A stretch of 32,791 bases of DNA from Hyphomicrobiales bacterium (GTDB lineage: Bacteria; Pseudomonadota; Alphaproteobacteria; Rhizobiales; JAJFHB01), in the NCBI GenBank assembly GCA_021775615.1, contig JAJFHL010000121.1, positions 1 through 32,791 of the forward strand, read 5' to 3'. Shown piece by piece: positions 6,289 through 12,162 of this stretch. The notes beneath the pieces were generated by a model that ran no database searches, had not been told where the DNA came from, and was given only the letters and a program-made list of their open reading frames with translations. Made by a program: the position numbers and the translations under genes. The first letter of the stretch is position 1; every line of letters starts with the position of its first letter.

Positions 6289-7005
6289 TTACTCGCGCAA
6301 GATCAACTGGTCGCCTGAAAGCTGGAACGAACCGATTTCGCGGAAATAGCTCATGCCCAGCAGGCTGAACGCAAGGACGTCGGCCTGAGACACGATGGCA
6401 CGCACTTTTCGCACCAGGATGCCGCCCACCTCCACTTCGTCGATGTCGATAATTGCTCCGTAGGCGACGCCATTCGCGGTGCGCAGCGGGACATCGTAGG
6501 TCAGTGCGTTGACATCGATCCCGATCCGCCGGGCGTCTTCATGGCTCAGGGTGACAAAAGTGGCGCCGGTGTCCGCCAGCATGCTGACATGGGTGCCGTT
6601 GACCAGCGTATCGACATCGAAATGCCCGTTTCTGCCGGCCCGGATGGCGACCATCCGTCGGTTGTTGTGGGTTTCGGTGGTTTGCGTCTCGTTGGCGACG
6701 GCGAGATTGGGCAGGTAATCCCCGGCCATCTTGCCTGCCAGCGAAAGCAGTTCGGCCCGGTAGGCATAGACGGATGCAGCGGTGAGAAAGATCACCATCC
6801 AAAGCGAAGCCAGTCTGAAGGCCAGCCCGGCACTTTGTTTCCGGCTGAACATCAGGGCCATGCAGATGCTGAATATGAGCGCGGCAATCTGAGCTACATC
6901 CGCGACACCGCCATCGGTCAGGCCGAACAGGTCGCGAGGAACGCCGAGCACGGCGATCACACCACCCGCGAGGCCGACCAGGGCCAATCCAATCCATGAC
7001 ATCAT
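6289..7005 (-). CDS. Membrane-anchored clan AA aspartic protease (TIGR02281 type)
   Basis: A 238-residue protein with about three N-terminal hydrophobic segments (roughly residues 3-22, 38-53, 64-82), followed by a single retropepsin-like domain. The active-site motif LADTGATFVTL puts the catalytic aspartate at Asp145. The later SLLGMSYF is the usual flap and C-terminal signature of this family. A single lobe implies that it works as a homodimer. The catalytic domain would lie outside the cytoplasmic membrane. It follows the DUF1289 gene after only 7 bases, an arrangement common in alphaproteobacteria. Substrates of this family are essentially unknown. Confidence 0.85.
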   Translation of the reverse strand: MMSWIGLALVGLAGGVIAVLGVPRDLFGLTDGGVADVAQIAALIFSICMALMFSRKQSAGLAFRLASLWMVIFLTAASVYAYRAELLSLAGKMAGDYLPNLAVANETQTTETHNNRRMVAIRAGRNGHFDVDTLVNGTHVSMLADTGATFVTLSHEDARRIGIDVNALTYDVPLRTANGVAYGAIIDIDEVEVGGILVRKVRAIVSQADVLAFSLLGMSYFREIGSFQLSGDQLILRE

Positions 7006-7272: not shown

Positions 7273-8373
7273 TCATCGCTTTGCCAGGCGGCTCAATTGC
7301 GCGTTGGTTTCTGCAACCAGGAGCGCCGTGAGATCGGCCGCCGGCATTTCGCGGATGAGGGAGGCCGACTGCCCGGACCACAACGACATGACGTCGCCAA
7401 CTCTGCTTTCGCCAGCGCCTTTGCGCAGCGGTCCCGTCAAGGACAGTTGTGTCGGAAACGGTGCGGCGTCGGCTTCGAACGGCTCGAACGTGTCCATATA
7501 GGCGTTGCGGAATCCGCGGGCGGGCCTGCCTGAAAACAGCTGTGTCAGCCGCGTGCCATCGTCACGCGCCGATGCGAGCTCTTTGCGGTGTGCCGGATGC
7601 ACATACGCTTCCGGGCAGAGCAGGAAGGCGGTGCCGATCTGTACCGCGGAGGCGCCCAGCGCCAGAGCCGCGGCAATGGTCCGCCCATCGACGATGCCGC
7701 CGGCGGCAATGACCGGCAGGTCGACGGCGGACGTGATTTGCGGCAGCAGCGCGAAGAGGCCAGGCTGTGCCGTCGGATCGGCGCCCTGAAAGGTGCCGCG
7801 GTGGCCGCCGGCCTCAAGCCCCTGGGCGATGATTGCATCGACCCCTTGCGCTTCCAGCCAGCGCGCCTCGCTGACCGTGGTCGCACTGGCGAGTATGACC
7901 GCATCGGTTTCGCGAACCGCCTGATAGAGATCCGGTTCGGGCAACCCGAAGTGAAAGCTCACCACCTTCGGTGAGAGTGTCTTCAGCATGTCCACATGTT
8001 CGGCGCCGAAGGTGGTGAACGGTGCGTGTGGCAGCGGAACCTCGCCGAGCTCCATTTCATCGTACCAAGGCTGCAGCCTGGCCCGCATTGCGGCGCTGCG
8101 GTCTTCGGTTTGCTCCGGCTCGTCGTGGCAGAAGAAATTGGCGTTCAAAGAGCGGTTGCTCGACTTGACGTGCTCCGCGATCTGCGCCCTGGCGTCATCG
8201 ACGCTGCTGGTGCCCAGACCCAGCGACCCGAGACCTCCGGCATTACTGACCGCCGACGAAAGGGCCGGCGTGTTGCCGCCCGCCATGGGCGCCTGAATGA
8301 TCGCGACATCGATCCCGAGGCGGGAGGTCAGCTCGTTCGAAGGCCACATCTTGGAGTTCCCGGCTTGCAACAT
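7273..8373 (-). CDS. Nitronate monooxygenase (2-nitropropane dioxygenase family)
   Basis: A 366-residue FMN-dependent TIM-barrel enzyme that oxidises alkyl nitronates such as propionate 3-nitronate, a detoxification reaction. The N-terminal IIQAPMAGGNTPALSSAVSNAGGLGSLG is the family's FMN-binding start. The central QGLEAGGHRG includes the presumed catalytic His191, and AAGGIVDGRTIAAALALGASAVQIGTAFL is the phosphate-binding strand. It fits the class I bacterial NMO group. The start could instead be the ATG at 8349 (residue 9); neither has a clear ribosome binding site. The DUF1289 gene follows 38 bp downstream on the same strand. Confidence 0.88.
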   Translation of the reverse strand: MLQAGNSKMWPSNELTSRLGIDVAIIQAPMAGGNTPALSSAVSNAGGLGSLGLGTSSVDDARAQIAEHVKSSNRSLNANFFCHDEPEQTEDRSAAMRARLQPWYDEMELGEVPLPHAPFTTFGAEHVDMLKTLSPKVVSFHFGLPEPDLYQAVRETDAVILASATTVSEARWLEAQGVDAIIAQGLEAGGHRGTFQGADPTAQPGLFALLPQITSAVDLPVIAAGGIVDGRTIAAALALGASAVQIGTAFLLCPEAYVHPAHRKELASARDDGTRLTQLFSGRPARGFRNAYMDTFEPFEADAAPFPTQLSLTGPLRKGAGESRVGDVMSLWSGQSASLIREMPAADLTALLVAETNAQLSRLAKR

Positions 8374-8461
8374 TGAAGCGGCATTTGACTGCGGCGGAAC
8401 ATGTGTTGCGGAAAACCGAACTGCAAGCAGAATCTGAACGATGCTATCGGCAATGCGGGGT

Positions 8462-9949
8462 TCAGGCGTTGACCACCAGTGCCGCCGGCTCGGCGGAATA
8501 GATCACCCGGCTGCCGGGAAATTCCGCCACGCCCTCGGTCCCGATACCGACAGCGCTGCGCAACTCGAATGTCCCGTTGTGCAGTTCGACCAGGCCGCGC
8601 ACGATCGGCAGACCGAGACCGGCGCCCTCCTGTGCGGTTTCGTAAGAAAGCGATCCCTGGCCGAACGAGCTGAGCACCCGTGGGATTTCCTCCTGCGGAA
8701 TGCCCGGGCCGGTGTCGCGTACCGACATGTAAACCCCTCCGGCGCGCGTCCTGCCGACACTGAGCACGATCTTGCCTTCAGGCGGTGTGAACTTGATGGC
8801 GTTGGATATGAGGTTCAGCCAGATCTGCCGGATCGCCCGCTCGTCGGCGTGAACCATCGGCAGGTCGGGCTCGAAGTTTTCCAGCACCTCGATGCGTCCT
8901 TCTGCGATCTTCAGAGACAGCAGGCTTCGGCAATCCGAGGCGACGTATTGCAGAGCAACAGCCGTTTCGTGCAGCTGGAACTTGCCGGCTTCGACCCGCG
9001 AGTGATCGAGCACCTGGTTGATCAGCGTCAGGAGATGTTCGCCGGAACGGTGGATGTCGTCGGCATACTCCTTGTAGCAGGGCACCGCGTGCGTGCCCAT
9101 CAGCTCGTCCTTGAGAATCTCCGAAAACCCGAGGATCGCATTCAGCGGGGTCCGCAATTCGTGGCTCATGGTGGCCAGGAAGTGCGATTTCGAGGCGCTT
9201 GCCTGCTCGGCGCGCTTGCGGGCCTCGATGGAATTGACATTGGCCTGTTCGAGTTCCGCGATCAGCGCGTCCTTCTGGGCCCGGTAATCAAGCATCGAAC
9301 GCGCCGTGCTCTGCAGGTTGCTGGCGAGATGCAGGCAATAGACTTCCGCCGCCAGCGCGAAGACGGCCATGGCCCACAGGACGATTTCAGCGCGAATGAT
9401 GGCCTGCATCACGATTGCAAATGTGATCGGCGCCATGCAGGCATAGACAATCAGGGTATAGCTGCTGGCGATCGACATGCGGATCGCGGCGACGATGACC
9501 AGGACCCCGATCACGAAAATATGTTCCAGCGGCCCGCTCGGTCCTGGGGCGACATAGACCAGGGAGGCCCAGGTGGCCGCCATCAGGAATTCAGAGGCCG
9601 CGATCTTGCTGCCCCACTCCCTGACATTCATCTCATGCGGGTCGGCATTGCAGAACTGGCGACACAACGCCAATTGGATCGCCTGTGTCGTTGCAATCGT
9701 CGACAACCACAAGATGACACCCGTGGTTTCCGCCCAGAACATGCAGTAGGCGGCCACGACGAGGGCCAGGATCGGCAGTGCGAATGCGGATTTGAGCTGG
9801 CTGGAAACAAACAGATTGAGAAGTTCGTAGTCGAAGGAAATACCGCCGCTGACGCCGGTCAACCGGGCACGCGCCTCGCGGACATGCGTGCCCATGGTAC
9901 GCGCATCCTCGGCATGCTGCTTGCGTGCATCAAAAGTTGCACCTGTCAT
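8462..9949 (-). CDS. Membrane sensor histidine kinase (PleC/CckA-like architecture)
   Basis: A 495-residue hybrid-less kinase. About six hydrophobic segments lie between residues 52 and 207. A coiled-coil linker (about 220-250) leads to the HisKA domain with H-box FLATMSHELRTPLNAILGFSE, where His263 is the phosphoacceptor. The ATPase domain shows N-box NLISNAIKFTP (379-389), G1 DTGPGIP (412-418) and G2 GAGLGLPI (442-449). No receiver domain and no adjacent response regulator gene are present, so its partner is encoded elsewhere. The integral membrane sensor region resembles those of alphaproteobacterial cell-cycle or polarity kinases, but I cannot assign a specific name. The final 25 residues diverge from the usual end of the ATPase fold. 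Confidence 0.88.
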   Translation of the reverse strand: MTGATFDARKQHAEDARTMGTHVREARARLTGVSGGISFDYELLNLFVSSQLKSAFALPILALVVAAYCMFWAETTGVILWLSTIATTQAIQLALCRQFCNADPHEMNVREWGSKIAASEFLMAATWASLVYVAPGPSGPLEHIFVIGVLVIVAAIRMSIASSYTLIVYACMAPITFAIVMQAIIRAEIVLWAMAVFALAAEVYCLHLASNLQSTARSMLDYRAQKDALIAELEQANVNSIEARKRAEQASASKSHFLATMSHELRTPLNAILGFSEILKDELMGTHAVPCYKEYADDIHRSGEHLLTLINQVLDHSRVEAGKFQLHETAVALQYVASDCRSLLSLKIAEGRIEVLENFEPDLPMVHADERAIRQIWLNLISNAIKFTPPEGKIVLSVGRTRAGGVYMSVRDTGPGIPQEEIPRVLSSFGQGSLSYETAQEGAGLGLPIVRGLVELHNGTFELRSAVGIGTEGVAEFPGSRVIYSAEPAALVVNA

Positions 9950-10141: not shown

Positions 10142-11041
10142 TCAGTCTTTCACGGCCATTTCGAAGAACTTGCCTGTCTGTTCGCCGCCCATGAAGTAGG
10201 CGCTGGCGCCGGACATGTCCGAAATCTCGTCCCAGTGCTTTGCGATATCTTCCGCACTGGGGTTTTCACCGAGAAACGCACCCCGCGCCTCGACGATTTC
10301 AGCCTTTGCGTAAACGCCGGCGCCGGCAGACACGATCACCCCGGTGGGCGCATCGGTGCCGGCCAGATAGATCACCGCCGGAGTAACCCGTTCGGGCGTC
10401 ATGAGCATTTCGGCCTCGGCAGGAAACAGGTCCGAGGTCATGCGCGTGTAGGCCACCGGCGCGACGGCATTGCAGTGAATGTTGTACTTCTGGCCCTCGA
10501 GCTTGAGCGTGTTCATAAGGCCGACAATCGCCAGCTTGGCGGCGCCGTAATTGGACTGGCCGAAGTTGCCGTAGAGCCCGCTTGACGATGTGGTGACGAC
10601 AACACGGCCGTAATTCTGATCGCGCATGATCGGCCAGACCGCCTTGGTCGGCTTCACGGTTCCCATGAGGTGAACATTGAGCACCGCTTCGAAGTCTTCG
10701 ATCGACATGTTCAGAATCGTGCGATCGCGCAGAATTCCGGCATTGTTGACCAGTATGTCGATCCGGCCATAGGCCTCCATGGCGGCGGCGACAAGGTTCT
10801 CCACGCCGGCATCATCGGTGACGCTGGCGCCGTTCGAAATGGCGTCTCCGCCGGAGTCCTTGATTTCCGCCACGACCTTCTCGGCGGCATCGGACGAACC
10901 GCCTGAGCCGTCCACCGCACCCCCCAGATCATTGACAACGACCTGTGCGCCGCGTTTTGCGAACTCCAGGGCGTGGGAGCGCCCAAGGCCGCCGCCTGCG
11001 CCGGTCACAATCGCCACCTTGCCGTCAAAACTGATCGCCAT
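10142..11041 (-). CDS. Short-chain dehydrogenase, MFE-2-like (3-hydroxyacyl-CoA type)
   Basis: A 299-residue NAD(P)-dependent oxidoreductase. The cofactor motif TGAGGGLG is at 13-20, NNAG at 99-102, and the catalytic Ser152, Tyr165 and Lys169 lie in TTSSSGLYGNFGQSNYGAAK. The segment NDLGGAVDGSGGSS after the second strand and the GLYGNFGQ stretch are typical of the dehydrogenase part of peroxisomal multifunctional enzyme type 2. Oxidation of a 3-hydroxyacyl-CoA in a beta-oxidation route is therefore the best guess. No hydratase or acyl-CoA gene is adjacent. The start at 11041 has GAGG 9 bases upstream. The MITE-like element lies in its 5' region (44 bp from the start), so its promoter may be inside or beyond that element. 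Confidence 0.85.
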   Translation of the reverse strand: MAISFDGKVAIVTGAGGGLGRSHALEFAKRGAQVVVNDLGGAVDGSGGSSDAAEKVVAEIKDSGGDAISNGASVTDDAGVENLVAAAMEAYGRIDILVNNAGILRDRTILNMSIEDFEAVLNVHLMGTVKPTKAVWPIMRDQNYGRVVVTTSSSGLYGNFGQSNYGAAKLAIVGLMNTLKLEGQKYNIHCNAVAPVAYTRMTSDLFPAEAEMLMTPERVTPAVIYLAGTDAPTGVIVSAGAGVYAKAEIVEARGAFLGENPSAEDIAKHWDEISDMSGASAYFMGGEQTGKFFEMAVKD

Positions 11042-11084: not shown

Positions 11085-11355
11085 TAGGGTCTGTAGTCAT
11101 TACCATGATGAGTTCTGCGTAGGGCGGATGTGGCCGCTGAGAAGGCGGGAAGGTGCAGGAAACCTGGCCGGTTTTCAAGCCTTTCCAACGCCCTCAGGGG
11201 CCACATCCGCCACGCCCTTCGGGTTCGCATAAACCGGCCCATCTGTGGCAAACCTGCCCCTCGAATAGGCGCCGGCCTGTCCTTCGTCGCAGCTTCACCG
11301 CATCTGGGCCGGTTTATTCGAACAGAAGACATCATGGTAATGACTACAGACCCTA
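11085..11355. mobile_element. MITE-like element with perfect 26-bp terminal inverted repeats
   Basis: The left end (11085-11110) begins TAGGGTCTGTAGTCATTACC, and the right end (11330-11355) is its exact 26-bp reverse complement. The outermost TA on each side could be a TA target duplication, as in IS630/Tc1-type insertion, leaving 24-bp ends. Inside are two strong hairpins: GGCGGATGTGGCC (11123-11135) pairs perfectly with 11199-11211, and an 18-of-19 stem pairs 11223-11241 with 11305-11323. No credible protein is encoded. It fits a non-autonomous miniature element and fills most of the 386-bp gap between the divergent SDR and MBL genes. Confidence 0.75.
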
Positions 11356-11427: not shown

Positions 11428-12162
11428 ATGAAAGTTACATTTGCGGGTACGGGCGACGCATTCGGCACCGGCGGACGGTTCAACACCTGCTTTCACGTCG
11501 AAACGGCGGCGCAGACGTTTCTGGTCGATTGCGGTGCGTCGTCACTCGTCGCGCTCAACCGGTTGAACATCGATCTGGCGACGATCCGAACGATATTCAT
11601 CACCCATCTGCATGGCGATCACTTTGGCGGCCTGCCGTTTTTTCTGCTCGACGCTCAGTTCGTTCACAGCCGCGAACTGCCGCTCACCATCGCCGGGCCC
11701 GAAGGCACCGGCGAACGCCTGCGGCAGGCCCAGGAAATTCTGTTTGCCGGCTCTTCAAAAAACAAATGGAAGTTCGATCTCGACATCGTGGAGATGCAAA
11801 CCGGGACTGAGATGGAGGTTCACGGTGTATCCGTAACGTCCTTTGAGATGGATCATTTCTCAGGTGCCCCGTCGCATGCACTGCGCTTTAAATACGACGG
11901 CAAGGTGCTGACCTATTCCGGCGACACCGAGTGGGTCGACGCGCTGGTGCCAGCATCGGCGAATGCCGACCTTTTCATTTGCGAATGCTATGGCCACACG
12001 GGCAGGGCGCCTTTCCATCTCGACCACGAAACCCTGGTGGCCAGGCGCCATCTGTTCACCGCGCGGCGCATCATCGTCACCCATATGGGCTCGACCATGC
12101 TGGAGAACCTGTCCCGGCTGGAGTTCGAGCCGGCCCATGACGGTATGGTTGTCGATGTCTGA
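11428..12162 (+). CDS. Metallo-beta-lactamase-fold hydrolase (RNase Z-like)
   Basis: A 244-residue MBL-fold enzyme. The N-terminal FAGTGDAFGTGGRFNTCF is close to that of RNase Z/ElaC-type proteins. Metal ligands are visible as His60, His62, Asp64 and His65 in THLHGDHFGG, Asp167 in YSGDTEW, and His220 in VTHMGS. It lacks the long exosite arm of true tRNase Z and is shorter than the roughly 300-residue family, so it may be a phosphodiesterase or other hydrolase rather than a tRNA-processing enzyme. It leads a three-gene plus-strand operon; its last 8 bases overlap the uracil-DNA glycosylase start. Confidence 0.85.
   Translation: MKVTFAGTGDAFGTGGRFNTCFHVETAAQTFLVDCGASSLVALNRLNIDLATIRTIFITHLHGDHFGGLPFFLLDAQFVHSRELPLTIAGPEGTGERLRQAQEILFAGSSKNKWKFDLDIVEMQTGTEMEVHGVSVTSFEMDHFSGAPSHALRFKYDGKVLTYSGDTEWVDALVPASANADLFICECYGHTGRAPFHLDHETLVARRHLFTARRIIVTHMGSTMLENLSRLEFEPAHDGMVVDV

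Follow-up and report, generated by a model that had tools for sequence, protein, structure and literature searches.

The 271-bp element located between two divergent genes in the window, the whole stretch of 32,791 nucleotides that was analysed, is a MITE by mechanism, and the notable part of its family is a conserved structural core that exchanges its ends. The best explanation, which we consider likely, is a non-autonomous element that is moved in trans by IS5-family transposases and carries an old two-hairpin core, the ends of which have been exchanged. MITEs are usually regarded as remains of a single IS that do not last long. In the present case, one and the same folded core was found in roughly a quarter of the sampled Pseudomonadota genera with the ends of different transposases, its covariation is as strong as in functional RNAs, and it has no Rfam entry. 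If the fold is functional, it would provide a testable case of the long-term survival of non-autonomous elements, as well as a strong structural marker for the annotation of unlabelled repeats that break assemblies.

Table 1. Parts of the element, in positions of the window.
Feature	Position	Strand	Remarks
Whole non-autonomous element	11085..11355	+	271 bp, includes both TA target copies
Left terminal inverted repeat	11085..11117	+	TAGGGTCTGTAGTCATTACCATGATG...; outer ~20 nt IS-like, inner part structural stem
Hairpin T1	11117..11215	+	Basal stem, loop AGG/ACG, variable 8-bp stem, loop GCAG/CAA, apical stem GGAAACC...GGTTTT
Central mini-hairpin CCTTCGG	11216..11222	+	Within GCCCTTCGGGTT; relatives keep CCCnnnGGG-type
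Hairpin T2	11223..11323	-	Ancestral template as in T1, inverted; sense on the - strand
Right terminal inverted repeat	11323..11355	-	Arm pairing with the left repeat

The first-pass annotation had described perfect 26-bp ends and two internal hairpins, and the coordinates it gave for the element are exact (Table 1). The terminal match is perfect over the outer 26 nt, and the complete arms of 33 nt are 94% complementary; the arms of the two internal hairpins are 71% (11123-11164/11170-11211) and 80% (11223-11257/11289-11323) complementary. The strong fold that had been proposed was clearly recovered: the minimum free energy of the 271-nt element is -171.6 kcal/mol, compared with -95.1 +/- 5.1 for dinucleotide shuffles, none of which was as good (n = 200, z = -15.05). 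The predicted fold is a cross, a four-way junction with zero unpaired bases at the junction, which consists of an end stem of 32-33 bp, two hairpins of 99 and 101 nt and, between them, a mini-hairpin of 7 nt, the last of which was absent from the earlier list.

As had been noted, the element has a TA at both ends (target G-TA-G) and lies between divergent genes, an SDR gene (10142-11041, minus strand) and a gene for a metallo-beta-lactamase-fold (MBL) protein (11428-12162, plus strand), upstream of both, at a distance of 43 bp from the SDR start and 72 bp from the MBL start. A location between the two divergent starts is what a conserved cis-regulatory region of the SDR/MBL pair would show, but the chance of this reading being right is close to nil: in the closest relative with the divergent pair, a member of the same family (G002), the genes are separated by a 251-bp gap and the element is absent, which is absence at the orthologous place rather than a base-exact empty site. 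In addition, the corresponding locus of another genome (G003) contains a GST gene, other genomes have no element there, and copies of the element adjoin many unrelated genes. Conservation of the region as a promoter of the pair was not seen, and the proposal that the element supplies promoters to the flanking genes gained no support, since a consensus scan detected none; a scan for intrinsic terminators was likewise negative. The MBL-fold protein itself has a sub-threshold match to Apyc1 (anti-Pycsar family; 38.9 bits, cut-off 50).

The host genome (G000, 6.26 Mb in 392 contigs) contains one other full copy of the window subfamily (A), which lies on contig C234 in the opposite orientation and is 87% identical, and a decayed copy on C160. 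A sister subfamily (B) is present in about 22 copies (43 ends) of 268 bp with the ends TAGGTCATGRACTCATAAAT, many of them located where contigs terminate, the place in which assembly-breaking repeats are expected. Together with the relatives in many genera and the SDR/MBL pair that lacks the element in the genome of the same family, these copies bear out the earlier classification as MITE-like. Recent activity, which the exact ends had been taken to suggest, is not supported: identity to the nearest copy is 87%, and most members retain a long matched end stem that includes bases 21-33, a part that the IS do not share. A 42-bp near-perfect palindrome in the host genome (L057, G000:C161:28238-28279), in which two element ends abut with no core between them (TAGGTTCTGCGGTCATCATCATGAT... 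and its reverse), is a minimal remnant or a deletion product.

That IS5-type transposases are the driver of mobility is well supported. A paired-end scan of 397 genomes of the order yielded pairs that were nearly all spaced at 265-272 bp, and a scan of named genomes located this end in Rhodospirillales, Rhizobiales, Rhodobacterales, Sphingopyxis and Hyphomonadaceae and also detected two autonomous IS, one from Aminobacter sp. HY435 and one from a Kiloniellaceae MAG. The Aminobacter IS (830 bp, L103:649-1478) has the end TAGGGTCAGGACCTATTAAT, which is near-identical to the commonest alphaproteobacterial element end, and an IS of the host (840 bp, L223:4-843) has the ends TAGGTCGTAGACCCATAAAC/TAGGTCATGGACTCATTAAA, matching the subfamily-B element end TAGGTCATGGACTCATAAAT. 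All three IS encode IS5-family transposases with DUF4096 and DDE_Tnp_1 domains (PF13340 and PF01609/PF13586; NCBIfam NF033580, transpos_IS5_3). The elements of one genome (G793) bear the ends of the canonical E. coli IS5, GGAAGGTGCGAACAAGTC. The search for an IS with the same ends, proposed in the first-pass annotation, was therefore successful for the sister subfamily and for the commonest alphaproteobacterial end and negative for the end subtype of the window copy (TAGGGTCTGTAGTCATTACC); the host genome contained subfamily-A ends as solo or decayed ends and in no IS, and several other end types (e.g. TATACCCAAGTNACTTCAAGATGC) were found without any linked transposase. As expected for MITEs, the elements are short, contain no transposase gene, have terminal inverted repeats (TIRs) and a target duplication and occur in several copies, and through subfamily B and the commonest alphaproteobacterial end their TIRs match an autonomous IS in the host or its relatives. 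The IS5-family transposases would recognise the outer ~20 bp of the ends, insert at YTAR and duplicate the TA, and thereby mobilise the element in trans, as we infer.

From the TA flanks an IS630/Tc1-type transposase had been suspected. A TA duplication is common to IS630/Tc1 and the TA-duplicating IS5 groups; however, the IS with matching ends belong to the IS5 family and 57 of 61 copies had a YTAR target (GTAG in the case of the window copy), which together indicate an IS5-type driver and not IS630/Tc1. In six genomes a search for the IS630 domain DDE_3 gave few matches, one in the host and none in the element-bearing genomes G032 and G023, counted as domain matches irrespective of their ends. 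Judged by the IS with matching ends that were found, a MITE driven by IS630/Tc1 is very improbable. An origin as an internal-deletion derivative of an IS was also considered and rejected: the core sequence is not visible in the IS at L103, L110 or L223, and the core is common to elements with unrelated ends. The Aminobacter IS is located exactly at the stop codon of an adjoining gag-asp_proteas gene (PF13975, L103:7-651), and the window gene at 6289-7005 encodes a member of the same protein family.

The architecture is shared by members of diverged sequence. In a non-redundant set (<85% identity) of 33 members with a median pairwise identity of 61%, 27 fold with zero unpaired bases at the junction and one further member has two hairpins only; the lengths of the end stem and of the hairpins (mostly 93-102 nt) are nearly constant. 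Alignment of T1 with the reverse complement of T2 revealed one common template, with a basal stem, a loop AAGG/AACG, a variable 8-bp stem, a loop GCAG/CAA and an apical stem GGAA...TTTC. With both hairpins built on this template, every element amounts to a unit of end and hairpin that has been duplicated in inverted orientation, and the distance (33 bp) and orientation of the hairpin are identical at the two ends. Variants of 303-308 bp (L104, L189, L191) have one hairpin of 131-136 nt instead of ~96, ~36-40 nt longer, and deletion derivatives of ~165-215 bp (L050, L147, L213, L062, L086, L260, L278) have retained one hairpin and both ends.

To follow the core separately from its ends, a covariance model (R1) was built from T1, independent of the end sequences; it scores 94 bits on the T1 of the window (11120-11215). 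With matches called at E <= 1e-4 in genomes at least 90% complete, a sample and not a census, R1 was found in 20 of 219 genera of the class and, at the level of the phylum Pseudomonadota, in 54 of the 232 genera that were sampled. The matches that were examined are mostly complete elements of 262-270 bp with an end stem of ~33 bp and about ten different end sequences; the end types seen with R1 hairpins include the AGGGYCTGTT-type, TATACCCAAGTNACTTCAAGATGC, AGGCTGTAGTTTCCATTTA, TAGTGTGGTGCGCGG, AAGGCAACACGGACTAAG, AGAGCACCATATAGTTTA, AGGGCGTGTTTATC and the E. coli IS5 end GGAAGGTGCGAACAAGTC. Some matches gave no end pair in a simple search, and some are deletion forms. Where R1 found both hairpins of a locus, they were convergent in 22 of 22 cases and 7-12 nt apart. 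The presence of the same core with many different ends across genera means that the core is separable from the ends, and its age probably exceeds that of any single set of ends. A large part of the Pseudomonadota has thus retained the fold of the core, although both the letters of the core and the ends that it borrows have changed.

The stems have changed in a manner that preserved pairing. In a T1 alignment of 30 sequences, two-sided changes were seen at 34 of 37 pairs, with a covariation of 0.641 compared with 0.202 after shuffling and at most 0.136 after sliding. A phylum-wide alignment of 102 hairpins, which was fitted to the covariance model and thus leans towards the structure, gave 0.845 (0.196 shuffled) with two-sided changes at all 37 pairs, and in this alignment the internal-loop letters (A, G, G / A, C, G) are 89-95% conserved while the flanking stems change. 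It might also be that the element is an ordinary MITE in which the palindromes are maintained by mutation, through template switching in quasi-palindromes, so that the fold exists without selection. Long inverted repeats are prone to quasi-palindrome correction, and this correction does give two-sided changes. However, it would erase mismatches, whereas the internal loops remain mismatched with fixed letters next to varying stems, and it would not prefer G-T over A-C. Mutational upkeep is therefore disfavoured and appears improbable.

Such a preference is present in the stems, where G-T exceeds A-C 66:28 in a structure defined without G-U pairs (20 versus 2 when counted per element). In the phylum-wide hairpin set, gathered with a model that favours G-U, the ratio is 99:41 with the fixed G-T pair excluded. 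Among isolated mismatches within helices it is 13:12 for T1 and 24:13 for T2, so that the strand bias is only moderate. An unoriented comparison of the arms gives nearly equal numbers of G-T and A-C, as follows from the opposite senses of the two hairpins. The excess of G-T speaks for the sense strand of the hairpin being selected in its folded, single-stranded form, and a folded single strand, be it RNA or single-stranded DNA, is probably under selection.

The placement of the copies bears on a possible function of this strand. Stop codons were hit, in the TA of TAA or TAG, by 23 of 43 non-ORF insertions, compared with 44 of the 195 YTAR sites that the flanks of these insertions contain (Fisher p = 1.2e-4), and five insertions are located at the shared stop of two convergent genes, compared with one of the 195 sites (p = 8e-4); both p-values are indicative, since the ORFs were mechanically predicted and related copies are non-independent. 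The element starts with TAG and ends with CTA, thus its insertion restores the stop whichever strand the gene is on. The window copy deviates from this placement, being located in a divergent promoter region and not on a stop codon. Because many copies sit on stop codons, they would belong to 3´ untranslated regions whichever way they are oriented, and since a hairpin in sense orientation lies inside each end, a transcript arriving from either side would meet a conserved hairpin first. This layout and the stop-codon placement favour a role at the RNA level in 3´ untranslated regions, a reading that we prefer but hold tentatively.

In the best explanation, the core is an independent old module, two copies of one hairpin arranged head-to-head around the mini-hairpin, so that reading inward from either end the same folded hairpin comes first. 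The module has been retained across the Pseudomonadota while its ends were swapped for those of different transposases. Its fold would be selected as a single strand, most likely as RNA from read-through of neighbouring genes, and might limit harm to neighbouring genes, or else help to stabilise or process the ends of transcripts, allowing the element to persist. That the folded strand has a function we infer from sequence comparison. Alternatively, the structure may act as DNA, with extruded or single-stranded hairpins (on the lagging strand or in an excision intermediate) binding a host protein or helping to pair the ends, as the same subterminal site at both ends. The symmetrical layout, with identical hairpins 33 bp inside either end and equally oriented towards it, and the nearly constant arm lengths are in line with such a role, and G-T is the more stable mismatch in single-stranded DNA as well. 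We nevertheless regard it as the less likely of the two, next after the RNA-level role, since the hairpins persist while the ends switch between transposases, so that no single transposase can be the partner, and double-stranded ends are generally considered sufficient for IS5-family transposition. In a wider reading, we see not quite an even chance that the core is a phylum-wide selfish or functional structured nucleic-acid module that outlives its transposases by repeated exchange of TIRs, the inherited unit being the fold and not a sequence or a gene, probably via recognition of the loops by a factor of the host.

Rfam scans of the window, 12 alphaproteobacterial loci and 15 other loci gave nothing above the gathering threshold, only miRNA-like chance matches. 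Searches of open papers gave RIME/ABC, Bru-RS, MITEPye1, REP and general reviews of MITEs, and no description of the family; ISfinder and subscription journals were outside this scope, thus single subfamilies may already have been named. The family resembles IS5-family MITEs in its IS5-like TIRs, TA duplication, lack of a coding gene, intergenic location and multiple copies. A typical internally deleted IS5 MITE retains inner IS sequence, whereas the core found here is not IS-derived and a single structure occurs over the phylum with many end types. An example of the former, and a useful control, is a 265-bp element of Inquilinus limosus (L129:2802-3066), which has related ends, resembles a classical internally deleted IS5-type IS and does not adopt the cross-shaped, cloverleaf-like fold.

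Several other families of short repeats are comparable. RIME and the A/B/C palindromes of Sinorhizobium and Bru-RS1/Bru-RS2 of Brucella are likewise intergenic palindromic repeats of Alphaproteobacteria, and published accounts attribute to them a secondary structure that is shared and conserved (PMC2573895) or class them as palindromic elements of repetitive type (PMC10800456); compared by description only, the Brucella units differ in their length of about 100 bp, and no exchange of ends is part of the RIME/ABC and Bru-RS descriptions that were consulted. MITEPye1 of Paracoccus yeei is an alphaproteobacterial MITE with long stem-loops (PMC11578231), but its ends correspond to those of the IS1182 family, whose transposase differs from the IS5-type of the window family. 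REP units are 20-40 bp long, and RUP, NEMIS/Correia, ERIC, YPAL and Nezha MITEs are listed in the same work (PMC3733652). REP/BIME with RAYT also show paired hairpins, conserved unpaired letters and a wide distribution; however, they depend on a single-strand HUH enzyme and have no TIR or TA duplication, whereas the hairpins of the window family are ~97 nt long and part of TIR-bounded units. RUP, NEMIS/Correia, ERIC, YPAL and Nezha are, like the window family, mobile, structured, TIR-bearing short repeats able to affect transcripts. To our knowledge, the paired hairpin template is not known from any of these five.

A plasmid search with the window element and an E. coli search with one gammaproteobacterial element gave no match. 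Copies of the family are present in Azotobacter chroococcum pAcX50f and in a Pseudomonas aeruginosa plasmid, where they are unannotated in a gene table that lists protein genes only. The end was also found in five viral contigs, and one contained the full element: in L220 (IMGVR_UViG_3300027790_000529), a contig classed as viral, a complete element is located at 8315-8584.
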